DNA from: Armatimonadota bacterium | GTDB taxonomy: Bacteria > Bacillota > Desulfotomaculia > Desulfotomaculales > Nap2-2B | Assembly (NCBI GenBank): GCA_023511535.1 | Contig: JAIMBK010000005.1 | Location: 1-64,000 of the forward strand | Direction: 5' to 3' | DNA: 64,000 bases | Shown: positions 5,559-63,362 of the stretch, one piece after another | Numbering within the stretch: the first letter of the stretch is position 1 | Layout: each line of letters starts with the position of its first letter | Notes under the pieces: generated by a model | The model's input: only the letters and a program-made list of their open reading frames with translations | Databases searched by the model: none | What the model was told of the DNA's origin: nothing | Position numbers and translations under genes: made by a program

Positions 5559-7775
5559 GTGGAGAAAAAGATGGGCGTATACATTTGCACAGGTTGTGAC
5601 ATAGGGGAATCTTTAGACCTGGAAGCACTTTCGAAAGTGGCTGCGAGCGAGTACAAAGTGCCGGTCTGCAAGACCCATCCCTTCCTCTGCAGCGCCGAAG
5701 GCGCCGGCCTGATCAAGCAGGACATCGCGGGGGAAGGCGTGAACGCCATCGTGATTGCCGCCTGTTCGCCGCGCGTCAACACCGATGTTTTTGATTTCCC
5801 GGACGTTTTTGTCGAGCGGGTAAACTTGCGTGAGCAGGTCGTCTGGTGCCACCCGGCCAACGACGAAGATACGCAAATGCTGGCCGAAGACAGCCTGCGC
5901 ATGGGGATCGTGAAGGCCCAGCAGGCCGAGTTGCCGGTGCCTTTCCAGGCCGAGGACATCTCCAAAACCATCCTGGTGGTGGGCGGCGGCCTGGCGGGAC
6001 TCACCGCCGCCGCGGAAACAGCCAAAGCAGGGTACCGGGCGGTTCTGGTGGAGAAAAAGGAAACCCTGGGCGGCTGGGCGGCCGGTTTAAAGAACGTGGT
6101 TGGTTTGCAACCCCCGTATACCGAACTGGAAGACCTTAACCTGGCCGATCGAGTCAGGGAAGTTGAAGAAAACGAGAAGATCACCGTTTATAAAAACGCC
6201 CAGATTGAAAAAATTGCCGGCGCTCCCGGGATGTTTGACGTGCAGATCAGGCAAAACGACAACTTATACAGCGAGCGCGTGGGCGCCATCGTGCTGGCCG
6301 CCGGCGCTGTTGCCTACGATGCGACAAAGCTGGAAAACCTGGGGTTCGGCAAATACACCAACGTAATCACCGGGGAGCAACTGGAAGAAATGGCCGGGCA
6401 GGGAGCGATCAAGCGCCCCTCCGACGGCAAGCCGGTGGAAAGCGTGGCCTTTATCCTGTGCGCCGGTTCCCGGGATAAGGAGCATCTCCCCTATTGTTCG
6501 GCCATCTGCTGCACGGAATCGCTGAAGCAGGCGCTTTACGTGAAACAGCAGAACCCGGAAGCCAGCGTCTACATTTTCTACAAGGACATGCGGGCGACGG
6601 GGAACTACGAGTTCCTCTACCAGCGGGTGCAGAAGGAAGGAGCCCTTTTCTTTCGGGGAGACGTCCTGGGGGTCGCCGAAGTGGCGGACGGCCAGCTGGT
6701 GATTGCGGCGGAAGACGTCCTGGTGGGCGAAGGGATTAAAACGGAGCCCGTCGACCTGGTCGTGCTGGCCACCGGCATGGTCCCCGTCACCGCCATCGGG
6801 GAAAAGCTGGTCATCAAAGCCGAGGACGATAAAGGGGCCCAGGAAGAAGCGCCGGCCGACGAAATTATCCGCTCCAATATCTTAAACCTGGAATACCGGC
6901 AGGGGCCGGAAGTGCCGCCCTTGAAATACGGTTTTGCCGATTCCCACTTTATCTGCTTCCCCTACGAAACGCGCCGGACGGGTATCTACGCCGCCGGCAG
7001 CGTCCGGGCGCCAATGGACATTCCCGCCACGATCAGAGACGCCACCGGAGCAGCTTTAAAGGCCATCCAGTGCGTGGAGCTGACGGCCGCCGGTTCGGCG
7101 GTGCACCCGCGGGTGTGGGACTTGTCCTTCCCGGAATTCTTTATGCAACGGTGCACCCAGTGCAAGCGCTGCACGGTGGAATGTCCGTTCGGAGCCATTA
7201 ACGAAGATGAAAAGTTCAACCCGCTGCCCAACCCGACGCGCTGCCGGCGGTGCGGCACGTGCATGGGCTCCTGCCCGGAGCGGATCATTTCCTTTAAGAA
7301 TTATTCCGTGCCGATTATCGGGAGCATGCTGAAAGCGATCGAAGTACCCGAAGAGGACGAAGAAAAACCGCGCATCCTCGTCTTTGCCTGCGAAAACGAC
7401 GCCTATCCGGCGCTGGACATGGCCGGCCTCAACCGCCTGAGCATCAGCCCGTGGGTGCGGGTTATCCCGGTGCGCTGCCTGGGTTCCATGAACCTGGTCT
7501 GGATCGCCGACGCCCTCTCCAAGGGCATTGACGGCATCCTCCTGCTGGGCTGCAAGCACGGCGACGATTACCAGTGCCACTTCATCAAGGGCAGCGAACT
7601 GGCCAATTACCGGCTGTCCAAGATCTCCGAAACGTTGAACCGGCTGGCCCTGGAAGCCGACCGGGTGCGCATGGTGCAGGTCAGCATCATGGACTACGAT
7701 AAGCTCCCGGGCATTATCGAAGAATTTGCCGGCAGGCTGGAGGAAGTCGGCCCCAACCCGTATAAAGGGTTCTAG
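5559..7775 (+). CDS. qmoB: Quinone-interacting oxidoreductase subunit QmoB (HdrA/MvhD fusion)
   Basis: Second soluble Qmo subunit, 738 residues, starting with GTG 8 bases after GGGGAGG. It has an HdrA-like N-terminal part (YICTGCDIG, ACSPRVN), an FAD fold around residue 137 (ILVVGGGLAGLTAAAE), two [4Fe-4S] motifs near residue 530 (CTQCKRCTVECP, CRRCGTCMGSCP), and an MvhD/FlpD-type C-terminal domain starting RILVFACENDAYPA. This domain order is characteristic of QmoB. It is expected to bind QmoA and accept electrons from the membrane/HdrD module encoded just downstream. Confidence 0.94.
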   Translation: MEKKMGVYICTGCDIGESLDLEALSKVAASEYKVPVCKTHPFLCSAEGAGLIKQDIAGEGVNAIVIAACSPRVNTDVFDFPDVFVERVNLREQVVWCHPANDEDTQMLAEDSLRMGIVKAQQAELPVPFQAEDISKTILVVGGGLAGLTAAAETAKAGYRAVLVEKKETLGGWAAGLKNVVGLQPPYTELEDLNLADRVREVEENEKITVYKNAQIEKIAGAPGMFDVQIRQNDNLYSERVGAIVLAAGAVAYDATKLENLGFGKYTNVITGEQLEEMAGQGAIKRPSDGKPVESVAFILCAGSRDKEHLPYCSAICCTESLKQALYVKQQNPEASVYIFYKDMRATGNYEFLYQRVQKEGALFFRGDVLGVAEVADGQLVIAAEDVLVGEGIKTEPVDLVVLATGMVPVTAIGEKLVIKAEDDKGAQEEAPADEIIRSNILNLEYRQGPEVPPLKYGFADSHFICFPYETRRTGIYAAGSVRAPMDIPATIRDATGAALKAIQCVELTAAGSAVHPRVWDLSFPEFFMQRCTQCKRCTVECPFGAINEDEKFNPLPNPTRCRRCGTCMGSCPERIISFKNYSVPIIGSMLKAIEVPEEDEEKPRILVFACENDAYPALDMAGLNRLSISPWVRVIPVRCLGSMNLVWIADALSKGIDGILLLGCKHGDDYQCHFIKGSELANYRLSKISETLNRLALEADRVRMVQVSIMDYDKLPGIIEEFAGRLEEVGPNPYKGF

Positions 7776-7780
7776 TTAAA

Positions 7781-7860
7781 AAGGCACAAAGGCAAAAGAG
7801 GCACAAAGGCACACAGGGAAAAACCTTGTGCTTTTGTGCCGGCGGCTTTTTGCCTTAAAA
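7781..7860. repeat. GGCACAAAG iterated hairpin element, copy A
   Basis: The left half carries repeated GGCACAAAGG units. The right half carries the inverted CCTTGTGC, TTTTGTGCC and TTTTGCCTT units, so the whole folds into one long imperfect hairpin. It fills the gap between qmoB and the HdrD-like gene. Relatives lie at 9057-9235, 13151-13330 and 25738-25830, with half-copies at 23601-23620 and 39950-39978. Confidence 0.75.
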
Positions 7861-7880
7861 AACGCCGAAGGAGTATTGCA

Positions 7881-9044
7881 ATGATGGAAGCAAAAGAACT
7901 TTCTATGGAAATGAAAGAATACATTGCCGCGGCCGGGGCCGAAACCCTCGACTGGTGCATGCAGTGCGGGCTCTGCTCCGCGCTTTGTCCGTGGCGCCTG
8001 GTTTCCGGTCAGATCAGCGAAGCGTTTTCCATCCGGAAGATGCAGCGCCTGGGGCAGCTGGGGCTGGAAGGCTTCGACACGGAGGAAGTTCTCTTTGCCT
8101 GCACTACCTGCGGCATGTGCCAGGTAAATTGCCCGCGGCAGGTGAAGATTATCGACAACGTCCGTTCCATGCGGAGCACCACAGTGGAAGCGGGCTTCGT
8201 CCCAACCAACCTGCGCTCCATCGTGGGCAGCCTGCACGCCAACGGGAACCCCTGGTCGGGAGCGCGGGAGGACCGTCTGAACTGGCAGAAGGGCCTGGAA
8301 GTGCCGCTCTTTACTCCGGAAACCGAATATTTTCTGTTTGTCTGCTGCACTTCCTGCTATGACCCCCGCAGCCAGAAAATCGCCCGAAGCATTGTCGAAG
8401 TGCTGAAGAAGGCGGGGGTAAGCTTCGGTGTCATCGGGGCGGAGGAAAGCTGTTGCGGGGAAACGGTGCGCAAGATCGGCGACGAGGAGCTGTTTAAGAA
8501 GCTGGCCCGGGGAAATATTGAGCTGTTTAAGAGCAAGGGCGTGCGCAAAATCATCACCACCTCGCCGCACTGCCTGTACACCTTCAAAAATGAATATCCC
8601 GAACTGGGCGGCGAATTTGAAGTGGTGCATTACACCGAACTGCTGGCCGGGCTGCTCCGGGAAGGAAAGTTCAATTTAAACGGTTCGCTGGGTAAAAAAG
8701 TCGCCTATCACGACCCGTGCTACCTGGGCCGCCATAACGGGATCTTCGACGCCCCCCGGACCCTGCTGGGCGCCCTTCCGGAGGCGGAAATAATCGAATT
8801 GAGCCGTTCGCGGGAAAGAAGCCTTTGCTGCGCCGGCGGCGGCGGCCGGCTGTGGGCGGAAGTGCCCCGGGGAGAGCGGTTTGGGGAACTCAGAGTGCTG
8901 GATGCGGAGGCAAAAGGGGCGGATATTCTGGCGACGGCCTGCCCTTACTGTATGATTATGCTGGAAGCGGACTGTCTGGCTTTAGATAAACAGGAAAAGG
9001 TAAAGATCATGGAAATTTCCGAACTCCTCAATGCCTGTTCGTAA
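7881..9044 (+). CDS. HdrD-like iron-sulfur protein (two CCG domains) in the Qmo operon
   Basis: A 387-residue soluble protein with two N-terminal [4Fe-4S] motifs (CMQCGLCSALCP, CTTCGMCQVNCP) followed by two cysteine-rich CCG domains (CCTSCYD...SCCGE...SPHC and DPCYLG...CCAGGGG...CPYC). This is the HdrC+HdrB fusion layout of HdrD and related GlpC-type proteins. CCG domains bind a noncubane cluster in heterodisulfide reductase. Its place between qmoB and the qmoC-like gene suggests it is part of, or an adapter for, the Qmo complex, perhaps handling a thiol/disulfide partner. ATG 7881 follows AAGGAG by 7 bases. The family call is firm; the partner is inference. Confidence 0.88.
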   Translation: MMEAKELSMEMKEYIAAAGAETLDWCMQCGLCSALCPWRLVSGQISEAFSIRKMQRLGQLGLEGFDTEEVLFACTTCGMCQVNCPRQVKIIDNVRSMRSTTVEAGFVPTNLRSIVGSLHANGNPWSGAREDRLNWQKGLEVPLFTPETEYFLFVCCTSCYDPRSQKIARSIVEVLKKAGVSFGVIGAEESCCGETVRKIGDEELFKKLARGNIELFKSKGVRKIITTSPHCLYTFKNEYPELGGEFEVVHYTELLAGLLREGKFNLNGSLGKKVAYHDPCYLGRHNGIFDAPRTLLGALPEAEIIELSRSRERSLCCAGGGGRLWAEVPRGERFGELRVLDAEAKGADILATACPYCMIMLEADCLALDKQEKVKIMEISELLNACS

Positions 9045-54345: not shown

Positions 54346-54399
54346 CTCTACCCCAATCCCCGTCCCCCCCCCCACCTTTCCATGGACGAAGCCGAGTGA
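54346..54399 (+). pseudogene. 3' fragment of a retropepsin-like gene
   Basis: Eighteen codons reading LYPNPRPPPHLSMDEAE and a stop match the last codons of the complete gene at 54584-54997 (LYPNPRSPHLPMAEAE). A long C run marks the difference. The rest of this copy is gone. It lies 25 bases after the MFS stop. Confidence 0.7.
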
Positions 54400-54410
54400 A
54401 AAGGTGAAAC

Positions 54411-54470
54411 ACGATGATAAACAATTAGCGATATAAAAGGTGAAGATGCAGGCGAAAAAGATTTTCGATT
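54411..54470 (+). repeat. Dispersed repeat R, copy 1
   Basis: GATGATAAACAATTAGCGAT, then ATAAAAGGTGAAGATGCAGG and an AT-rich tail. It matches copies at 60591-60680 and 62451-62530, which share GATAAACAGT, GCGATATGAAGGGTGAAGAT. Confidence 0.65.
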
Positions 54471-54493
54471 GTTTTTGACCGGATCGCAAACAG

Positions 54494-54521
54494 GCAGGAA
54501 TTATGTAGAATGATGGAGAAT
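54494..54521 (+). promoter_or_regulatory. SigH-like promoter, copy 1
   Basis: GCAGGAATT at 54494 and GAGAAT ending 54521 resemble the -35 AGGAATT and -10 GAAT of sigma-H promoters. Nearly identical elements are at 57500-57528 and 62334-62361. It lies 60 bases before the retropepsin start. Confidence 0.5.
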
Positions 54522-54551
54522 AAGTTATTGATGCAATTAAAATATGCCTCA

Positions 54552-55020
54552 CAGGCAGGAAGGAAAGCCGGGGGTAAATATAAATGGGTGAAATTGGGGT
54601 GAGCAGCAAAATGGGCGTATTTTACGAAACGGTCAAGATCAGGAACGTAATCGGCGGGGGCGAACCCCTCGAACTTACGGTAAAGGTAGATACGGGAGCA
54701 ACCATGTTAGTGCTCCCCGGCTGGGTGCAGAATGAACTAAAATTTCCCGTGATTCGTAAACAAGTGGTACGCTGCGCCAACGACGAAGAGACTGCCGGGC
54801 GGGAGGTGGTCTACGGGGTGGAGCTGACCGTTGGCGACCGCCCCGGAGTGTTCGAGGCCATTATTGAACCCCGGAAAAACTACGGTTTGCTGGGGGCCAT
54901 CGTCATGGAGGCTCTGGATCTGATCGCCGACCCGCGCTCCCAAAGGCTCTACCCCAATCCCCGTTCCCCCCACCTTCCCATGGCCGAAGCCGAGTGAAAA
55001 GGCGACAGCAAATCAGGCAC
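54552..55020 (+). repeat. Duplicated segment, copy 1 (about 470 bases)
   Basis: From CAGGCAGGAAGGAAAGCCGG onward this segment is almost identical to 60793-61260, covering the retropepsin gene and its leader. Similarity fades about 20 bases after the stop. Copy 1 is intact. Confidence 0.9.
54584..54997 (+). CDS. Retropepsin-like clan AA aspartic protease
   Basis: A 137-residue single-lobe aspartic protease-like protein. The active-site motif is VDTGATMLVLP (Asp36), followed by the flap-side strands and the second hydrophobic-Gly motif YGLLGAIVMEALDLIAD (ILG-type psi loop). It ends LYPNPRSPHLP. Such small bacterial proteins probably work as homodimers like viral retropepsins; substrates are unknown. 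The start at 54584 lies 9 bases after CCGGGGG, with a second possible ATG at 54611. Complete here; three damaged relatives lie nearby. Confidence 0.85.
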   Translation: MGEIGVSSKMGVFYETVKIRNVIGGGEPLELTVKVDTGATMLVLPGWVQNELKFPVIRKQVVRCANDEETAGREVVYGVELTVGDRPGVFEAIIEPRKNYGLLGAIVMEALDLIADPRSQRLYPNPRSPHLPMAEAE

Positions 55021-55070
55021 GGTTAGTGGGGTGTGCTGGAGGCAGTTGAGAGTTGAGGGGGGTGCCCGAA

Positions 55071-55343
55071 ATGGGTGAAGTAAGGTAGCGATTGGGTCTG
55101 GCCCTGCGCGGCCGGCGGGTTGCCGAATGTGCCGACAGACGGAAGGAAGCGGTAGGGGTGACGGAGCCGCTGATCATCGAAATAGAAGGCAGAGATACCC
55201 TGGAAGAAGCGCTGGTGCTGGGGGACGAGGTGATCATCGGCCAAACCGTGTTGGAAAAGCTGGATCTTTTTGTCGATTGCGTGAATCAACGTCTTATTCC
55301 CAACCCTGCCCATCCGGATCAGCCCGTATCGAAAGTAAAATAG
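55071..55343 (+). pseudogene. Second retropepsin-like gene, deleted through its active site
   Basis: ATGGGTGAAGTAAGG then an in-frame TAG is followed directly, in the same frame, by RLGLALRGRRVAECADRRKE and on to VIIGQTVLEKLDLFVDCVNQ, then RLIPNPAHPDQP. The latter is a clear retropepsin-family C-terminal half, distinct in sequence from the 54584 gene. The segment expected to hold the DTGA active site is missing. An internal deletion with a junction stop explains it. A 5' start within the remaining part is possible but would lack the catalytic Asp. Confidence 0.72.
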
Positions 55344-55353
55344 CTTTAAAAAG

Positions 55354-55998
55354 ATGAAACTGCCCGCGAAAGCCGCCATCATCGAAGTCCTGCTCCGGGA
55401 CGGCCTCCAAACGAGGCCCGGCCGGTCCCCCTGCCCCCTCATTCCCAATCTCCGCGGCTACCGCGCCGGCCGGGAAGCGGGCCTTGCGCACCTGAACTTC
55501 GTTTTTTCCACCAGCGAAAAACACAACCTGAACAACGTGAACAAAACCATCCGGGAGTCCCTGACCGAACTCCGCGCCATCGCCGCGCAGGCCGAGCGCG
55601 ACGGGATCGGGCTCCGCATCAGCATCGCCACCGCCTTTGGCTGCCCCCTGGAAGGCGAGGTCCCCCCGGCCAGGGTTTTGGAGTTGATCGGGGAAGTTCT
55701 GGCCTGCCCCGCCATCGAAGAGATCGTTCTGGCCGATACGGCCGGCCTGGGCAGCCCTCCCCAGGTTTTTGAGCTGAAGGAGTTGGAAAACCAGGCCGGC
55801 AGGCCCCTGGTAGGATACCGTAGCGTTTATGTAGATAACAGGTCGCTCCGGATTATATGGAAGGTTACAGAACTGCAGGTAATCGAGGTCGCCATCATAG
55901 CTGGCATAGCCGAACGCGAAGGAATGTTTGCTTATAAACTGGTTTCCAGGCGCAGGGGAGAATTGGAGAAGTTTATCAAGGAACTCGTTAAGCAATAA
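55354..55998 (+). pseudogene. HMG-CoA lyase remnant fused to a RelE-like tail
   Basis: An open frame of 214 codons made of two unrelated parts. Residues 1 to about 150 resemble HMG-CoA lyase: AAIIEVLLRDGLQT at the start, LIPNLRGYRAGREAGLAHLN, FVFSTSEKHNLNNVNKTIRE and SIATAFGCPLEGEVPPARVL, but with strands 1-2 deleted after RDGLQ and the C-terminal metal-binding part missing. From about residue 152, GYRSVYVDNRSLRIIWKVTE and the following helix resemble the C-terminal half of a RelE/ParE toxin. The fusion point is near 55808. Neither part is likely to be functional. No ribosome binding site is clear. Confidence 0.65.
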
Positions 55999-56149
55999 AG
56001 GTATCAAATACGCCTGGACGCCCTGCTGGCGGCGGTCTGCTGAAGAAGGTTAACATTGCCGGAAATTTTGCATTTGACGTAACAACTTAACAAAACCCGA
56101 AATCCGTTATATAATTATTTTAGAAATTTTTGCAAGGGAGCCTTTCGAG

Positions 56150-56230
56150 ATGCAGAGCGCCAAACAAGAAATAATTAATTTGCTTGCCCAGGGGAATGTC
56201 TATGATGTTCTCATAGTCTTGTCTGTATAA
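56150..56230 (+). CDS. Possible 26-residue peptide upstream of the RusA-like gene
   Basis: MQSAKQEIINLLAQGNVYDV and six more residues, starting 8 bases after CAAGGGAG. It resembles the opening of the antitoxin at 56754 (MDTVKKEALKLISELPE) and may be a truncated antitoxin. Its TAA overlaps the ATG of the next frame (TAATG). Confidence 0.35.
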   Translation: MQSAKQEIINLLAQGNVYDVLIVLSV

Positions 56231-56544
56231 TGTTTGATAAGTCTCAAAAGATAGCTTGTGCGATTTATTACTTTCATAGAAAGAAAACAGAGATAGATGC
56301 AGATAATATGGGCAAGTCATTACTTGATGCACTAAAAGGAGTTTTTTTTGAGGATGACTCTCAGGTGATTTGGAGGCTGGCGGTGAGGATTAATGCTCTC
56401 GAAGATTATGTGATTGAAAATAAAGGGATGGACTTAGATAAGTTTGACGAGCTAATCGATTTCATCAGTACCAGAGACCATGTTGTGTACATAGAATTAA
56501 AGAGAGTAGAAAGTCTTTTACTGACTGTAGGCCAGAAATTTTAG
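56230..56544 (+). pseudogene. RusA-like Holliday junction resolvase, N-terminally shortened
   Basis: The central RusA signature is clear: KTEIDADNMGKSLLDALKGV, then FFEDDSQVIWRLAVRI, containing the D-x-DN and DDSQV acidic residues. In RusA proteins this motif lies about 60-75 residues in, but here it is at residue 24, so the N-terminal strand region is missing. 104 residues. The DNA is AT-rich and phage-like in character. It may be a leftover of a prophage or plasmid. Confidence 0.6.
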
Positions 56545-56563
56545 CGCCAGGGAGGTACGGGAG

Positions 56564-56683
56564 ATGAGCATACCTTTAACATTTCCCTTTAAATTTCAAG
56601 TCCTGTTAAATCACCAACTCGAGCTCATTGAATGTGCAAAGATTGAGATAGATGTATCATCTTTTTACAATAATTTTAAATAA
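56564..56683 (+). CDS. Possible small protein, 39 residues
   Basis: ATG follows AGGGAGGTACGGGAG. The frame reads MSIPLTFPFKFQVLLNHQLE, then LIECAKIEIDVSSFYNNFK. It lies in the gap between the RusA-like frame and the next toxin-antitoxin pair. The good ribosome binding site argues for translation; nothing else supports a function. Confidence 0.35.
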   Translation: MSIPLTFPFKFQVLLNHQLELIECAKIEIDVSSFYNNFK

Positions 56684-56687
56684 TTTA

Positions 56688-56696
56688 TGTTATAAT
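56688..56696 (+). promoter_or_regulatory. Extended -10 promoter of the RelE/ParE-type pair
   Basis: TGTTATAAT at 56688-56696, 58 bases before the antitoxin start. Confidence 0.5.
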
Positions 56697-56753
56697 GGTT
56701 GTATCTCCGTAATCGGGAAAGATCTGTCATCTAATTTAAGGAGGTGTTTGCCA

Positions 56754-56933
56754 ATGGATACAGTAAAAAAGGAAGCGTTGAAATTAATATCGGAATTACC
56801 GGAGCAGGTTGGCTGGGATGACATTATATATAAACTTTACGTAAGGAAAAAAATAGCTACCGGTATTAAAGCTGCTGAAGAAGGTCGCGTAATTTCTCAG
56901 GAAGAAGTCAAAAAGAGGTTTTTAGGCCAGTGA
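56754..56933 (+). CDS. Antitoxin of a RelE/ParE-type pair
   Basis: 59 residues: MDTVKKEALKLISELPEQVG, WDDIIYKLYVRKKIATGIKA and AAEEGRVISQEEVKKRFLGQ. The final ISxEEVKKRF pattern is typical of the toxin-binding end of small antitoxins paired with ParE/RelE proteins. AAGGAGG lies 9 bases upstream. It overlaps the toxin GTG by 4 bases. Confidence 0.85.
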   Translation: MDTVKKEALKLISELPEQVGWDDIIYKLYVRKKIATGIKAAEEGRVISQEEVKKRFLGQ

Positions 56934-57238
56934 GAATTGAATGGACAGAGCCTGCAGTTTTGGATTTAGAAAGCATCCAGGAGTATATTAGAAAAGGTTC
57001 GGAGCTATACGCAAATATCTTCATTGAGAAGCTGATTAACGCACTTGACAATTTGAGTAATTTTCCTTTTATGGGTCACAGCGTTCCAGAAGCCAGGAGG
57101 AAAAACATCCGGGAAATTATTTTTCATACTTACCGGATTATTTATCGTGTAGAAAAGGAACGTATTTTAATATTGGCTATTATCCACTGTTCTAGAAATC
57201 TTCGACGAAAGAAACCGAAGCCCTGGGAAATTACTTAA
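56930..57238 (+). CDS. RelE/ParE family toxin
   Basis: 102 residues with the family pattern: MRIEWTEPAVLDLESIQEYI at the start, FPFMGHSVPEARRKNIREII in the middle and YRIIYRVEKERILILAIIHC near the end. ParE types poison gyrase and RelE types cleave mRNA. The two cannot be told apart here. GTG start overlapping the antitoxin stop (GTGA). Low GC. Confidence 0.87.
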   Translation: MRIEWTEPAVLDLESIQEYIRKGSELYANIFIEKLINALDNLSNFPFMGHSVPEARRKNIREIIFHTYRIIYRVEKERILILAIIHCSRNLRRKKPKPWEIT

Positions 57239-57499
57239 GCTAACTTTTTCATTTGCCAATGACAACAAACTTCCTTGGCTTTAGAAAACCCCCTTCGGAA
57301 AAAGGGGGGCCATGTTTGTCCGAATGTGTGGCCACTGCGGAATAGCTAGGGCAGCGGGCCGCTTCCCCTGGCCGAGCACGAAACGGCTTGCGGGAAATCG
57401 AAATCGGCGCCTTCGTTGACCCCCGCCGGGTTCCCCAAATGGCCGGCACCCTCGAGCTCTCTTTATCGTTGCCGCCGAAACCTTTTCTCACTTCGGCAG
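57239..57499. other. Intergenic stretch with a hairpin, no gene
   Basis: CCCCCTT and AAGGGGG around 57288-57308 form a G/C stem after the RelE/ParE gene, possibly its terminator. The rest up to the SigH-like element has open frames on both strands, but none has a start with ribosome binding site or a recognisable motif. Confidence 0.5.
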
Positions 57500-57528
57500 G
57501 CAGGAATTTTGTAAAAGCGTGGAGAAAT
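57500..57528 (+). promoter_or_regulatory. SigH-like promoter, copy 2
   Basis: GCAGGAATTTTGTAAAAGCG then TGGAGAAAT. It is upstream of the O-antigen ligase-type gene by about 100 bases and shares CTTCGGCAGGCAGGAATTTT with 62326-62345. Confidence 0.5.
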
Positions 57529-57628
57529 AAGAAACGTTAATTTTGGTTTCCAGCCGGTGGAAAACGTTGCTGTTGTTTTCTTTACACTGATTTGATGAGC
57601 AGAAATTGACTGGCGAGGGTGGATAAAA

Positions 57629-60256
57629 ATGCCGAAAGCAACGGCCCAGGCAAAGGGAGCGAGGCTGACCAAAATCACAGCTGCGGCCGGGCACGCCGCC
57701 GCGCAAAGGTCCTGGGCGGACCAGGCGGCCTTCTGGGGCGTGGCGCTGCTCCTTTTCTTCCCGCCCTTTTTCCGGGGGCTTTTCTTCGCCACCGAGCAGT
57801 GCCGGGCGCTTGTTCTGGCGGCGGTCCTGTTCTGGCTGGCCTGGTGGGGGAAGCACAGCCGCCGCGATTACGCTTTTCTCTCCCATCCCCTGGACTACTT
57901 TATCCTGGCGCTGCCGCTGGTCTACCTGGCGGCCGCCGCGGGCGCCGTGAACTACGGCCTGGCGGTGGCCGAAATCGTCAAGAACGTCCTCTATTTCCTC
58001 GTTTACTGGCTGGTCGTCCAGCTGGTCCGGGAGGAAGCCGATCTTTCCCGCTTTTTGCACGTCATTTACTTCGCCGCCGTCGGGGTGGCCCTGGCCGGGC
58101 TGGCCACCGCCACGGGCCTCGTGAACATCAAGGACGGCTTTTTGAACGGCCGGATCTACTCCAGCTTCCAGTACCCCAACGCCCTGGCCAGCTACCTGGC
58201 CCTGGCTGCTTTTCTGGGTCTGTGCTTCTGGCAGAAAAACGGGCCGCTTTCCCTGGCCGCCGCCATCACCGACCGGACGCTGCAAAAAGTGCTGCCGGAC
58301 CGGCTGCTCAACCTGCGGCCTTTCGGCTACCTCTACATCCTGGCCGACTTTCTCCTGCTGGCCGTGCTCTTCGGCACTAAATCCCGCGGCGGCCTGCTCA
58401 TTACCGGCGCGGTGTTTGTGCTGTACATCGCCGGCCTGCCCTGGCCAAGGCGCCTGCCGGTGCTGCTGCACGTGCTGCTTGCCGGCGGCCTCGGCTACGT
58501 TTTTATTCACCTGTTTATCAGCAGGGCCGTGGCCAAACAAATGGGGGTAGCCTGGCTCTGGATCGGCGCGGGCCTGGCGGCGGCTATCCTGGCCCAGGCG
58601 GCTTACAACTTTTTCTCTTCCCGCCGCCCGCCGGCCTGGCTGAACGAAAGAAAAAGTGCCGGCCGGGTTTTGGCCGGTCTGCTCGGCTGCTTTGCCGTTG
58701 CCGGCGGGGTGTTCACCGCCTTCCGGCCGGAACTGCTCCAGAAGATAATTTCCTTCAACTACCTGCGCAACGCCTTTGAGCGCACTTACTTCATCAAAGA
58801 CGCCCTGGCCATGCTGAAAACCCGCCCCGTTTTGGGGTGGGGCGGCGGCGGCTGGGAAGAAGCCTACCGCTCCTTCCAGGGTTACCTGTACAACTCCAAC
58901 GAAGTACACAGCTACTACTTCCAGGTGGCCGTAGAAACCGGCGTCCCGGGACTGCTGGTGGTGCTGGGGATCTGGGCGGCCTTCTTCTGGGCGGCGCACC
59001 GGGCCTACCGGGCCGCTTCCGCCGGGGTGGAGCGCAAAACCCTCGTCTGGACGCTCTTTGCCGCCGCCCTGGCCGTGGGCGGCCACGCCGCGATCGACTT
59101 CGACCTCTCCCTTTCCGCCCTGACCATCGCCCTGTGGACGGTCTTTGCCGGGGTGCGGGTGCTGGGGGGATTGCCGGGGGAAACGGTGGAAACCTTAGGG
59201 GCGGCCGGAGGACCCGGCAAGGAGCAAAAGAAAGCGGCCGGCGGGCCGGGGGTGCCTGGCCAAACCGTCACCGCCACCGACCGCACCGCCGGCAGCGGGA
59301 ACCCTGGGAAAAAGGGGAAGCGGGCCGCCGGAAAAGGGTCCGCCACTACCTCGGGCGCCCCGGGTGCCCCGGCCGCGCGCCGGGAAAAAACTTCCGCCGG
59401 CAAACGGCGGGCCGCCCGCCCGCCCGCCCAACCGGTTTTGCTGGCCGTCTACTCCTTCATCACTATCCTGATCCTGTTCCTGGGCATTACGTTCACCGCG
59501 GCCAACGCCTGCGCCCGCAGCGCCTCGGAATCCCTGCAGGCGGGCAAGGTGCAGGAAGGGCTGGCCTACCTGCAGAAAGCCGCTGCGTATGACCCGTTCA
59601 ACGCCGAATACCACGCCAACCTGATGCGCGTTTACCTGGCCGCCGGCAAACCGGAGCCGGCCCTGGCCGAAGCTAAACAGGCCGCGTCCTTAAGCCAATA
59701 CAGCGCCGCCCGGCAGGCGGACCTGGCCTCCGCCCACCTGGCCGCGGGCGACCCCGCCGCTGCCGTGGCCGCCGCCCGCCGCGCCGTAGAGCTGGCTCCC
59801 TACCAGATCGTCTGGTACGAAACGCTGGCCGAGGTCTGCTCCCTGGCCGGGCAAAAGGAACTGGCCGCCGGCAATAAAGAGGCGGCCCGGCAGCACTTAG
59901 AAGAGACCTTGCAAATTCCCGCGCTCATCACAAGCCGCGTGGCCGCCCTGGGGGAAGAAGAAAAGCGCCTGTGGAAAGACGCCCCCATGCTCGCCCCCAC
60001 CCCCCGGGTGCAGCTATCCACCGGCCAGGCGCACTACCTGCTGGGCCAACTCACCGCGGCGGAAAAAGACCTGCAAAGCGCCTCCGCCGCCGCCGGCGAC
60101 CAGCAGCTCAAAGGCGAGGCCCTCGTCTGGCTGTCCCTGGTCAAGGAGAAGCAGGGGAAAAAGCAAGAGGCGCAAGAACTGGTGAAACAGGCTTCCGCTC
60201 TAAACAAAGCCTATGAGAATGCCTTCGAGCAGTTGAAGGCGTTGCCGGTTTTATAA
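57629..60256 (+). CDS. O-antigen ligase/polymerase-type membrane protein with TPR domain
   Basis: An 875-residue protein. About a dozen membrane helices span residues 33-515, with the Wzy_C/O-antigen ligase region including RIYSSFQYPNALASYLALAA, GTKSRGGLLITGAVFVLYIA and WGGGGWEEAYRSFQGYLYNS, followed by EVHSYYFQVAVETG. An Ala/Gly/Lys-rich linker (about 525-600) leads to another helix and a C-terminal TPR-like array (LQAGKVQEGLAYLQKAAAYD, AKQAASLSQYSAARQADLAS, SAAAGDQQLKGEALVWLSLV). It transfers or polymerises surface glycans. The ATG has GCGAGGGTGG upstream. It fits with the glycan ABC exporter downstream. Confidence 0.88.
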   Translation: MPKATAQAKGARLTKITAAAGHAAAQRSWADQAAFWGVALLLFFPPFFRGLFFATEQCRALVLAAVLFWLAWWGKHSRRDYAFLSHPLDYFILALPLVYLAAAAGAVNYGLAVAEIVKNVLYFLVYWLVVQLVREEADLSRFLHVIYFAAVGVALAGLATATGLVNIKDGFLNGRIYSSFQYPNALASYLALAAFLGLCFWQKNGPLSLAAAITDRTLQKVLPDRLLNLRPFGYLYILADFLLLAVLFGTKSRGGLLITGAVFVLYIAGLPWPRRLPVLLHVLLAGGLGYVFIHLFISRAVAKQMGVAWLWIGAGLAAAILAQAAYNFFSSRRPPAWLNERKSAGRVLAGLLGCFAVAGGVFTAFRPELLQKIISFNYLRNAFERTYFIKDALAMLKTRPVLGWGGGGWEEAYRSFQGYLYNSNEVHSYYFQVAVETGVPGLLVVLGIWAAFFWAAHRAYRAASAGVERKTLVWTLFAAALAVGGHAAIDFDLSLSALTIALWTVFAGVRVLGGLPGETVETLGAAGGPGKEQKKAAGGPGVPGQTVTATDRTAGSGNPGKKGKRAAGKGSATTSGAPGAPAARREKTSAGKRRAARPPAQPVLLAVYSFITILILFLGITFTAANACARSASESLQAGKVQEGLAYLQKAAAYDPFNAEYHANLMRVYLAAGKPEPALAEAKQAASLSQYSAARQADLASAHLAAGDPAAAVAAARRAVELAPYQIVWYETLAEVCSLAGQKELAAGNKEAARQHLEETLQIPALITSRVAALGEEEKRLWKDAPMLAPTPRVQLSTGQAHYLLGQLTAAEKDLQSASAAAGDQQLKGEALVWLSLVKEKQGKKQEAQELVKQASALNKAYENAFEQLKALPVL

Positions 60257-60334
60257 GCCCAAAAATAATTCTGGTGGATGGATGATGCAAGAAATTGAAT
60301 ATGTTCTACCTTGCTTTTGCGGAGAGTGAGCTTG

Positions 60335-60640
60335 ATGAGTAAAGAAAAAGAAATGATCGAAAAAAATATTGAATTGAGCACGGAGTTTAGCAGATATTTA
60401 TTTGAACATCCAGAACTGGAAGAAAAGATCCCGGCAGGGGCGGAAATTGTCCTATTGCCTGAGTTTGATGCGGAATTAAGGGATTTTAATTTGCAAATAG
60501 GAAAAAAAATTGAAGCAGAAGGGAATAAAGTAATTTACATAAGAATTGCCAGCTTAAAACCGAAAATATTTTCGCGCCTGGAAGGTGTGAGTTTGACGCT
60601 AACCAGCAGGGAACATGGTGATAAACAGTTGGCGATATGA
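60335..60640 (+). CDS. DUF5647 family protein
   Basis: 101 residues starting MSKEKEMIEKNIELSTEFSR, with YLFEHPELEEKIPAGAEIVL and FDAELRDFNLQIGKKIEAEG, matching the small DUF5647 proteins often found near toxin-antitoxin or mobile genes. The ATG lies about 8 bases after GGAGAG. The last 17 codons (GVSLTLTSREHGDKQLAI) overlap dispersed repeat R, so the true C-terminus may have been altered by it. Function unknown. Confidence 0.75.
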   Translation: MSKEKEMIEKNIELSTEFSRYLFEHPELEEKIPAGAEIVLLPEFDAELRDFNLQIGKKIEAEGNKVIYIRIASLKPKIFSRLEGVSLTLTSREHGDKQLAI

Positions 60641-60680
60641 AGGGTGAAGATACCAGGCCAAAAAATCCTCGATTTTTGAT
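60591..60680 (+). repeat. Dispersed repeat R, copy 2
   Basis: GTTTGACGCTAACCAGCAGG, GAACATGGTGATAAACAGTT and GGCGATATGAAGGGTGAAGA. It matches 62451-62530 nearly base for base and 54411-54470 in its second half. Confidence 0.75.
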
Positions 60681-60699
60681 ATGGACGGAGGGTCCGGGG

Positions 60700-60783
60700 T
60701 TGCGCATTCTCGTCACCGGCGGAGCGGGCTTTATCGGCAGCAATTTGATCAAATACGTTTTAGAAAATACCCCTACCAACTGA
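60700..60783 (+). pseudogene. rfbB: 5' fragment of rfbB (dTDP-glucose 4,6-dehydratase)
   Basis: A TTG start behind GGACGGAGGG encodes 27 residues, MRILVTGGAGFIGSNLIKYV and LENTPTN, then TGA. GGAGFIGSN is the NAD-binding Gly motif of the RmlB/GalE family, and the rest reads like the RfbB N-terminus. The gene is cut where the duplicated segment begins (60793), so most of rfbB is missing. Confidence 0.75.
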
Positions 60784-60792
60784 TTTTACCTC

Positions 60793-61260
60793 CAGGCAGG
60801 AAGGAAAGCCGGGGGTAAATATAAATGGGTGAAATTGGGGTGAGCAGCAAAAGGGCATATTTTACGAAACGGTCAAGATCAGGAACGTAATCGGCGGGGG
60901 CGAACCCCTCGAACTTACGGTAAAGGTAGATACGGGAGCAACCATGTTAGTGCTCCCCGGCTGGGTGCAGAATGAACTAAAATTTCCCGTGATTCGTAAA
61001 CAAGTGGTACGCTGCGCCAACGACGAAGAGACTGCCGGGCGGGAGGTGGTCTACGGGGTGGAGCTGACCGTTGGCGACCGCCCCGGAGTGTTCGAGGCCA
61101 TTATTGAACCCCGGAAAAACTACGGTTTGCTGGGGGCCATCGTCATGGAGGCTCTGGATCTGATCGCCGACCCGCGCTCCCAAAGGCTCTACCCCAATCC
61201 CCGTTCCCCCCACCTTCCCATGGCCGAAGCCGAGTGAGCGGGCGACAATAAATCAGGGAC
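60793..61260 (+). repeat. Duplicated segment, copy 2 (about 470 bases)
   Basis: Almost identical to 54552-55020. Differences include a single-base deletion near 60852 and a few substitutions at the right end. Copy 2 truncates rfbB. Confidence 0.9.
60825..61237 (+). pseudogene. Frameshifted retropepsin-like gene, copy 2
   Basis: Same sequence as the 54584 gene except AGCAAAATGGGCGTATT reads AGCAAAAGGGCATATT, losing one base. The frame from ATG 60825 is therefore broken after about nine codons. The second ATG used as an alternative start in copy 1 is also destroyed. The remaining frame from the internal ATG at 60944 begins just after the catalytic DTGA and would be inactive. Confidence 0.85.
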
Positions 61261-61393: not shown

Positions 61394-61654
61394 TTGCTGA
61401 TAGCCGTCGCCGTATTCGCCTTTATCGAAAGCCGAAAAGAAGGTACTGGAAAGGGAAGTCAGGCGGCTCCGCGCCCTTCCCTGTTCGCCTCTAAACTGAG
61501 GAAGTTAGCGCTGGCACTCGAAAAAGAAGAGGCGGAAGGGGCAGAGCTTGCTTCCCAGATGGACATCAAAGACTATTACCTGGAGGCCCAGCGGTGGATT
61601 GGCCTGTTTCAAAGGTACGAGAGGTATGCAAAAGACGCGCTGATTACCTTTTAA
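61394..61654 (+). CDS. Unrecognised open frame, probably a remnant
   Basis: 86 codons: a hydrophobic start MLIAVAVFAFIESRKEG, then a charged helical part (LRKLALALEKEEAEGAELAS, YYLEAQRWIGLFQRYERYAK). No ribosome binding site is clear. It ends where the PIN fragment in another frame begins, so it may be part of a broken or fused gene. Confidence 0.3.
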   Translation: MLIAVAVFAFIESRKEGTGKGSQAAPRPSLFASKLRKLALALEKEEAEGAELASQMDIKDYYLEAQRWIGLFQRYERYAKDALITF

Positions 61655-61779
61655 CGTGGAACTGCAAACACCTTGCTCACGGTGAAGTACGCAAAAAATT
61701 AAAACGTTATAACGACGCCGTTGGGCTGGATACTCCGGAAATTGTAACCCCAGATGAACTGATGAGGAGGGATGAGTAG
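61633..61779 (+). pseudogene. C-terminal fragment of a PIN-domain toxin gene
   Basis: RRADYLLTWNCKHLAHGEVR followed by TPEIVTPDELMRRDE is the typical end of one VapC-like PIN family (DYLLTWNCKH, then PxIVTPEEL). The N-terminal two thirds with the first catalytic acids are missing. Its TAG overlaps the GTG of the next gene. Confidence 0.72.
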
Positions 61780-61964
61780 TGGATGATCCAATTGTTAATG
61801 AGGTCAGGAAATTACGTGAAGCCATATTAGAAAAATTCGGAGGAGATTTGAATAAGTTTTTTAAGTATATCCGGGAAGAAGAAAATAAAAATCCTAAAAA
61901 ATTAGCTGCGCGCAGGTTGCTTGTCAGCTACTCTTTAAATGCTTTGATAATTATGCTAGCGTGA
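61779..61964 (+). CDS. Partner protein of the broken PIN toxin
   Basis: 61 residues: MDDPIVNEVRKLREAILEKF, then GGDLNKFFKYIREEENKNPK. Proteins of this MDDPIV/REEI form are found overlapping PIN genes of this type and are presumed antitoxins. GAGGAGGGA precedes the GTG. The C-terminal 15 residues (LLVSYSLNALIIMLA) look unrelated and may come from a rearrangement. Confidence 0.65.
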   Translation: MDDPIVNEVRKLREAILEKFGGDLNKFFKYIREEENKNPKKLAARRLLVSYSLNALIIMLA

Positions 61965-62208: not shown

Positions 62209-62333
62209 AGGAATTCGGCCGGCGGCTGAAGAATTTGCTGAAAAGCCAGTGGTAATCAAACGTAAACGAGGGCCGGCTCCGCCAAAAGGAGCACGGTGGC
62301 TGACATCAATTACCACTTTCTTTACTTCGGCAG
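62209..62333. other. Non-coding stretch
   Basis: A basic, proline-rich reading (VVIKRKRGPAPPKGARWL) continues the remnant character in one frame without a start. Nothing else is seen before the SigH-like element. Confidence 0.4.
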
Positions 62334-62361
62334 GCAGGAATTTTGTAGAAGCGTGGAGAAT
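62334..62361 (+). promoter_or_regulatory. SigH-like promoter, copy 3
   Basis: GCAGGAATTTTGTAGAAGCG then TGGAGAAT, with the same spacing as copy 1. It lies about 225 bases upstream of the ABC exporter genes, with repeat R between. Confidence 0.5.
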
Positions 62362-62450
62362 TAGGAGTGATAAGTTTGTAGATACCGGTCGTCTTTACCT
62401 GCATTATAAAATAAATGGCATTCTGTGGTAAGATATGATCCGGCACACGG

Positions 62451-62530
62451 GTTTGACGCCAACCAGCGGGTAACATGGCGATAAACAGTGAGCGATATGA
62501 AGGGTGAAGATACAGGCAAAAGAAGATTCG
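62451..62530 (+). repeat. Dispersed repeat R, copy 3
   Basis: GTTTGACGCCAACCAGCGGG, TAACATGGCGATAAACAGTG and AGCGATATGAAGGGTGAAGA, matching 60591-60680. It ends about 55 bases before the permease start. Confidence 0.75.
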
Positions 62531-62585: not shown

Positions 62586-63362
62586 ATGTGGCAGCAAATT
62601 AAGGAAATATATGCTTACCGCGAGATGCTCAAAAACCTGGTAGCGAAAGAACTGCGGGCACGTTACAAGGGTTCGGTACTGGGGTTTTTGTGGACTTTTT
62701 TTAACCCTTTGCTGGTGCTGGTGGTATACAGCGTAGTTTTTTCTTTCGTGATGCGCGTGCAGCTTGAGCATTATTCCATGTTTTTGTTTGTCGGTCTGTT
62801 GCCCTGGAATTACCTGGCGACCTCGGCCCAGATGGGGGTGGCCAGTATTGTGGCCGGCGGCGGGCTGGTCAAAAAGACCTATTTCCCCAGAGAGATCTTG
62901 CCGTTATCAATAGTTCTGGCCAATCTCGTTAATTATCTATTGAGTTTATTTATTCTCCTCCCGGCTCTCCTGATTGTGCAAATTCCGTTGACCATCGCCT
63001 TGCTGGCTTTTCCAGTTGTGCTGGTGGCGCAGACATTGCTGGTGACGGGATTGACTCTTCTCCTGGCGGCAGCCAACGTTTATTTTCGCGACCTGGAGCA
63101 TATCACCGGCGTGGTGATGATGGCCTGGTTTTTCTTTACGCCAATTTTATACCCGTTGGAGATGGTGCCCCCGGAGCTAAAAGGTTTATTTCTCTTCAAT
63201 CCGGTGGTGCCGGTAATTAAAGCCTACCAGGATATCTTTTTCTACGGGCAATTTCCGGATTGGGCGAGCCTGGGTAGCTTCGCCGGCGGGGCAATGATCT
63301 TCCTTGTGCTCAGTTTAACTGTTTTCAACCGTCTGCAAAGGAACTTTGCCGAAGTCATTTAA
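62586..63362 (+). CDS. ABC-2 type polysaccharide export permease (Wzm/TagG-like)
   Basis: 258 residues. The short amphipathic N-terminus MWQQIKEIYAYREMLKNLVA leads to the family motif KELRARYKGSVLGFLWTFFN, then six membrane helices with YFPREILPLSIVLANL in the first loop and FFTPILYPLEMVP near the end. This is the membrane half of exporters for O-antigen or teichoic-acid-like polymers. GCAAGGTG precedes the ATG. The ATPase gene starts 14 bases downstream. Confidence 0.93.
   Translation: MWQQIKEIYAYREMLKNLVAKELRARYKGSVLGFLWTFFNPLLVLVVYSVVFSFVMRVQLEHYSMFLFVGLLPWNYLATSAQMGVASIVAGGGLVKKTYFPREILPLSIVLANLVNYLLSLFILLPALLIVQIPLTIALLAFPVVLVAQTLLVTGLTLLLAAANVYFRDLEHITGVVMMAWFFFTPILYPLEMVPPELKGLFLFNPVVPVIKAYQDIFFYGQFPDWASLGSFAGGAMIFLVLSLTVFNRLQRNFAEVI

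Follow-up and report, generated by a model that had tools for sequence, protein, structure and literature searches.

Four retropepsin-like pieces, one whole gene and three broken ones, occupy positions 54346-61240 of the 64,000-nucleotide stretch that we analysed (the window), on the margin of a polysaccharide gene cluster. We consider it likely that this segment is a hotspot of accessory-gene turnover, where proteases gained sideways decay quickly. Small stand-alone retropepsin-fold proteases would have reached the site at least twice, from different lineages; one of them would have been duplicated over 6.2 kb, followed by homogenisation or recombination, and small indels or deletions would have broken down three of the four pieces. 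The genes may have entered gene-poor gaps through recombination or illegitimate joining, with no transposon of their own, and selection for their retention would be weak or conditional. We count as established the pieces, the two lineages, the patchy cross-phylum spread, the differing addresses of sister genes, the frequent breakage and one clear insertion of a cassette. Most work on the bacterial relatives of HIV protease has treated them as fixed enzymes with housekeeping or virulence roles. Here such proteases behave like expendable accessory genes, frequently broken and frequently beside older broken copies, and the informative part lies in the dynamics, with sideways gain, movement of the gene alone, rapid decay and remnants that stack up.

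Protease pieces and their surroundings in the window

The four loci, one whole and three broken, that the initial annotation had listed were all recovered in place. On the forward strand lie all four pieces, both copies of the duplicated block, the repeat copy at 54408-54463 and the genes and debris of 55354-60785 and 62586-63362. Directly behind an MFS transporter gene lies a 3' remnant of a 54584-type protease gene (54346-54399) consisting of the last ~18 codons and the stop, and the segment 54346-54407 matches 54947-55005 with 89% identity over 62 nt (E 8e-15). The complete gene (54584-54997) encodes 137 aa with DTGA and LLG motifs. The third piece (55071-55343) belongs to a second lineage and has lost codon ~5 to ~50, about 50 codons with DTGA among them: its ORF opens with ATGGGTGAAGTAAGG, next comes a TAG stop and then an 83-aa C-terminal part. 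These 83 residues are 92% identical at the protein level to the C-terminal 83 of an intact 137-aa homolog in another genus (G007, Peptococcaceae SCADC1_2_3), the DNA likeness between the two stops exactly at the stop codon, and NCBIfam TIGR03698 is matched at profile positions 49-106 only. The fourth piece (60825-61237) is a second copy of the 54584 gene, frameshifted by a 1-nt deletion after codon 9, the rest of the coding sequence being all but identical. DTGA is thus absent from 55071, and in 60825 it is out of frame with the start.

The 54584 protein scored 29.3 bits with Pfam Asp_protease_2 (PF13650), above the gathering cut-off of 24.3, and 26.3 bits with TIGR03698 (clan_AA_DTGF), below the curated cut-off of 57.35, which in its own genome is passed by the copy on contig C99 only. 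The catalytic DTGA corresponds to residues 36-39, with D36 invariant, and the second hydrophobic-hydrophobic-Gly motif to LLG at 102-104, with G104 invariant. An AlphaFold2 model (pLDDT 81) has a single-domain retropepsin beta fold, which Foldseek matched to the proteases of HIV (E about 3e-5) and HTLV and to APRc of Rickettsia, the E values ranging from 3e-5 to 6e-5 and target-normalised TM from 0.57 to 0.78; a sequence search of the PDB gave nothing meaningful. No signal peptide or membrane segment was seen by eye. The modelled product is likely to be a soluble, homodimeric cytoplasmic aspartic protease.

The surrounding segment carries further debris. Behind the second-lineage piece lie a truncated HMG-CoA-lyase-like ORF whose C-terminal portion is unrelated (55354-55998; Pfam HMGL-like, profile 71-176 of 260) and an ORF that retains the C-terminal portion of a RusA resolvase (56230-56544; Pfam RusA, profile 76-111 of 124), followed at 56754-57238 by a RelB/ParD-like antitoxin (56754-56933, weak match) and a ParE toxin (56930-57238). 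An O-antigen ligase/TPR gene (57629-60256), homologs of which are split by a protease cassette in two genomes, a DUF5647 gene (60338-60640) and the 5' remnant of a dTDP-glucose dehydratase/epimerase gene (60700-60785) come next. The epimerase remnant is 78% identical over 82 nt to a similar remnant beside a protease in genome G002. The polysaccharide ABC exporter permease (62586-63362) adjoins the O-antigen ligase gene in the relatives G008 and G010, where the gap between them is ~40 nt or less versus 2.3 kb in the window; the window gap holds debris including the frameshifted protease copy and the truncated sugar epimerase gene. For the window copies, no exact empty site was found at the DNA level. 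Between the frameshifted copy and the permease, 61594-61964 contains remains resembling the C-terminus of a PIN-type toxin and then a small ORF, with no Pfam match above cut-off.

Two kinds of short intergenic sequence recur in this segment. A 56-75 nt repeat at 54408-54463, 60591-60665 and 62451-62524 is confined to these 8 kb, with no copy elsewhere in the genome, and stands upstream of a protease, the truncated epimerase gene and the ABC exporter permease; we rejected it as an RNA family, there being no Rfam match and no consistent fold. A CAGGCAGGAATTTTGTAGAA-type box, possibly promoter-related, is present ~60-225 nt upstream of genes at 54491-54524, 57497-57530 and 62331-62364.

Gain, movement and decay of the proteases

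The genome holds at least seven copies (six profile-search matches and one remnant) in five lineages, three of them intact and four broken. Three further members lie outside the window, on contigs C99 (intact), C32 (intact) and C35 (internal stop). The five lineages fall at five places in the tree, where long branches leave the deep forks unsure; the strongly supported branches alone require three separate origins. If five lineages were placed at random in 3.18 Mb, the chance of two different ones lying within 800 bp of each other would be ~0.005. The C99 copy (7603-7960) lies in a 770-nt gap between clpX and lonB, two genes that in most relatives are close together, 120-265 nt apart; in the same genus the gap is 456 nt, without clear homology to the protease gene.

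In a survey of the class, a protease copy was present in 13 of 113 genomes and lacking from the other genome of the same genus; with a wider cut-off, 11 of 60 relatives had one. Homologs of the 55071 subfamily at 59-89% identity were found in five phyla (Bacillota, Bipolaricaulota, Acidobacteriota, Planctomycetota and Chloroflexota), one Bacillota gene branching among Bipolaricaulota (support 94/84). The genes of G005, G002 and G008 share 86-90% DNA identity over ~375 nt, which covers the gene and ribosome-binding stretch only, at unrelated addresses. In G007, G009 and G002, three genomes among the nearest relatives to carry the 55071 lineage, that gene likewise lies close to the same exporter pair. 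In Acidobacteriota and Bipolaricaulota the gene has constant neighbours across genomes, so that stable inheritance can occur as well. The best match of the 54584 lineage outside its own genome reaches only ~40%; since it has no close relative there, its movement is inferred from its cousins. As a separate observation, a ~100-nt dispersed intergenic repeat is present in dozens of copies in genus g2 (L048:9427-9561 in G005; many in G002, G007 and G009), and its ~34-nt core is repeated in the window's own genome.

The clearest insertion was found in genus g12, where a cassette of ~680 bp made of a DUF5678-like gene and a DTGF protease splits the ligase/TPR (wzy) gene of G058 and G018 and is absent from G032, which is 94% identical to G058 in the flank and has the ligase/TPR gene whole. 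The gene is also unsplit in other families, and insertion is therefore the simpler direction. Comparison of the loci (L051:7763-8360, that is G058:C1 ~1759.8-1760.4 kb; L117:9750-10010; L118:8053-10482) gave 98.2% identity between the G058 and G018 cassettes versus 84.6% between their flanks, so the cassette made its move not long ago. In G018 the C-terminal half of the protease is already gone.

Breakage is common, as 10 of the 26 copies classified in the class were broken, a count in which some breaks in draft metagenomes could be sequencing errors. A remnant adjoins another member in the window, on G005 C12, on G013 C20 and on one Chloroflexota contig. In Synechocystis, where a protease gene lies antisense between cmr4 and cmr3 of the Cmr operon, the copy on pSYSA of PCC 6803 (L070:6004-6384) has its catalytic DSG changed to DSE. 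PCC 6714 was rejected as an ancestral empty site; it retains the first ~7 codons of the gene and nothing more of it, which indicates a deletion. The repeated gain and loss proposed in the initial annotation, and a recombination-prone site, are borne out by the five lineages, the presence in a minority of the class, the differing sister addresses, the insertion recognised by comparison with an unsplit homolog and the many broken copies.

Toxin-antitoxin genes and the DUF5678-like/protease pair

Alternatively, the proteases could belong to toxin-antitoxin-like or defence modules whose presence changes as islands are gained and lost, a reading compatible with the turnover hotspot and, as an explanation of the window, rather unlikely. 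In its favour, a survey of small ORFs up to 3 kb from 17 copies, which fall into 16 distinct neighbourhoods, showed toxin-antitoxin families in four of these neighbourhoods and in none of 17 control stretches (among the best 25 of the 48 control families; Fisher p ~0.04 by locus), although the controls were drawn from large contigs. The families encountered included ParE, PIN, MazE, BrnT, HEPN/nucleotidyltransferase, UPF0175 and DUF3368. The DTGA subfamilies of the window, however, have no toxin or antitoxin gene as constant neighbour, nor any other constant partner. The link to toxin-antitoxin genes suggested earlier is weak and amounts to co-residence in accessory regions.

Two overlapping small genes kept together are found in the DTGF subfamily and not at the window copies. 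On plasmids of Nostoc, Tolypothrix and Trichormus (L196, L198-L201), a DUF5678-like gene and the DTGF protease overlap by 4 nt, and among the plasmid records with a protease the DUF5678-like gene is directly upstream in 8 of 10. A close pair is also present on C35 of the window's own genome (L046:12643-13250) and in G058. In Nostoc sp. MS1 the pair lies antisense within a BREX locus, with pglZ and pglX on either side; elsewhere it was found once beside ParDE and once beside RelE and Uma2 genes. This conserved pair, like the solo gene inside the Cmr operon, speaks for the module reading. We found no account of it in the open literature, and its occurrence on plasmids and in defence loci makes it a candidate protease-based addiction or defence module. 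Tentatively, small retropepsins might in general be transposon-less mobile genes, of which the DTGF unit would be an addiction- or defence-like module with its 4-nt overlap and the solo DTGA genes partner-less derivatives subject to the same gain and decay.

Origin of the cluster and comparison with known systems

The duplication of ~470 bases including a leader, noted in the initial annotation, measures 474 nt at 98.1% identity: copy 1 (54547-55020) comprises the leader, the gene and a 24-nt tail, and copy 2 (60789-61260) begins where the epimerase remnant ends. The 380 nt up to and including the stop codon are identical, and 6 of the 24 nt after it differ, a clustering with P ~1e-7 if mismatches were uniform. 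The copies thus either were joined to different tails or were homogenised by gene conversion, and did not arise by simple copying of one block; the pattern indicates gene conversion, or else recombination onto a remnant already in place.

That a single ancestral gene simply duplicated in tandem on the spot and decayed, with no transfer involved, is an improbable account of the whole cluster. It remains true for 54584 and 60825, which are clearly duplicates. The 54584 and 55071 lineages, however, are only 28% identical, so the cluster is not one tandem duplication; moreover, 55071 has its close match in a gene of another genus, and the genome contains five lineages. A single ancestral tandem duplication common to all relatives is excluded.

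It is less probable still that a defined mobile element, with the duplicated leader forming part of its ends, carries the proteases as cargo. The leader does lie within the duplicated block, and an Rpn-like PD-(D/E)XK gene adjoins two homologs. The leader is nevertheless confined to the two duplicate copies, being absent upstream of the genome's other members and of relatives, so the leader repeat is not always attached to the gene and we rejected it as an element end. Homologs have only the gene in common. Neither terminal repeats nor target-site duplications were found, and no integrase or transposase was seen beside the window copies. Phage records and viral contigs yielded no sequence relative of the proteases, on which ground a phage origin was rejected, fold-level matches to phage proteins showing a shared fold only. 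The mobile unit suggested earlier is accordingly not supported as a defined element. An assembly artefact, through collapsed repeats or a strain mixture in the metagenome assembly, is the least credible alternative: the genome is a 136-contig draft and one break is a single-base indel, but both copies, with different flanks, are on a single 72-kb contig, many bases differ in the 55071 deletion and in the block tails, and similar remnants occur in unrelated assemblies.

A turnover hotspot that receives proteases sideways is hence the reading that we prefer, and its genes belong to a known kind. The window proteins are COG5550-like prokaryotic retropepsins of clan AA, and they share with the prokaryotic single-domain peptidases of that clan (Llorens 2009, PMC2642776) and with TIGR03698 a length of ~120 residues, one D-T/S-G, a hydrophobic-hydrophobic-Gly motif and the retropepsin fold. 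They differ in that 54584 stays well under the TIGR03698 cut-off (26 versus 57 bits). A search of the open literature turned up no study of how genes of this group move, break or are flanked. Rickettsia APRc (5c9f) and Pseudomonas RloA (9g58), which match the 54584 fold, are membrane-anchored or periplasmic, whereas the window protein would be a bare soluble domain. Uma2/DUF820 genes offer a parallel in behaviour, being dispersed solo genes in cyanobacterial plasmids, of which one shares the Cmr operon with a protease gene and another adjoins a DUF5678-like/protease pair; they have a PD-(D/E)XK nuclease fold, unrelated to that of the proteases. The survey of type II toxin-antitoxin and mobile stress modules by Makarova (2009, PMC2701414) includes a Zn-protease/Xre pair, and the word 'aspartyl' is absent from its main text. 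The proteases resemble such modules as small, patchy, plasmid-borne, decaying genes in accessory islands, and the DUF5678-like/protease pair further resembles type II modules in its 4-nt overlap.
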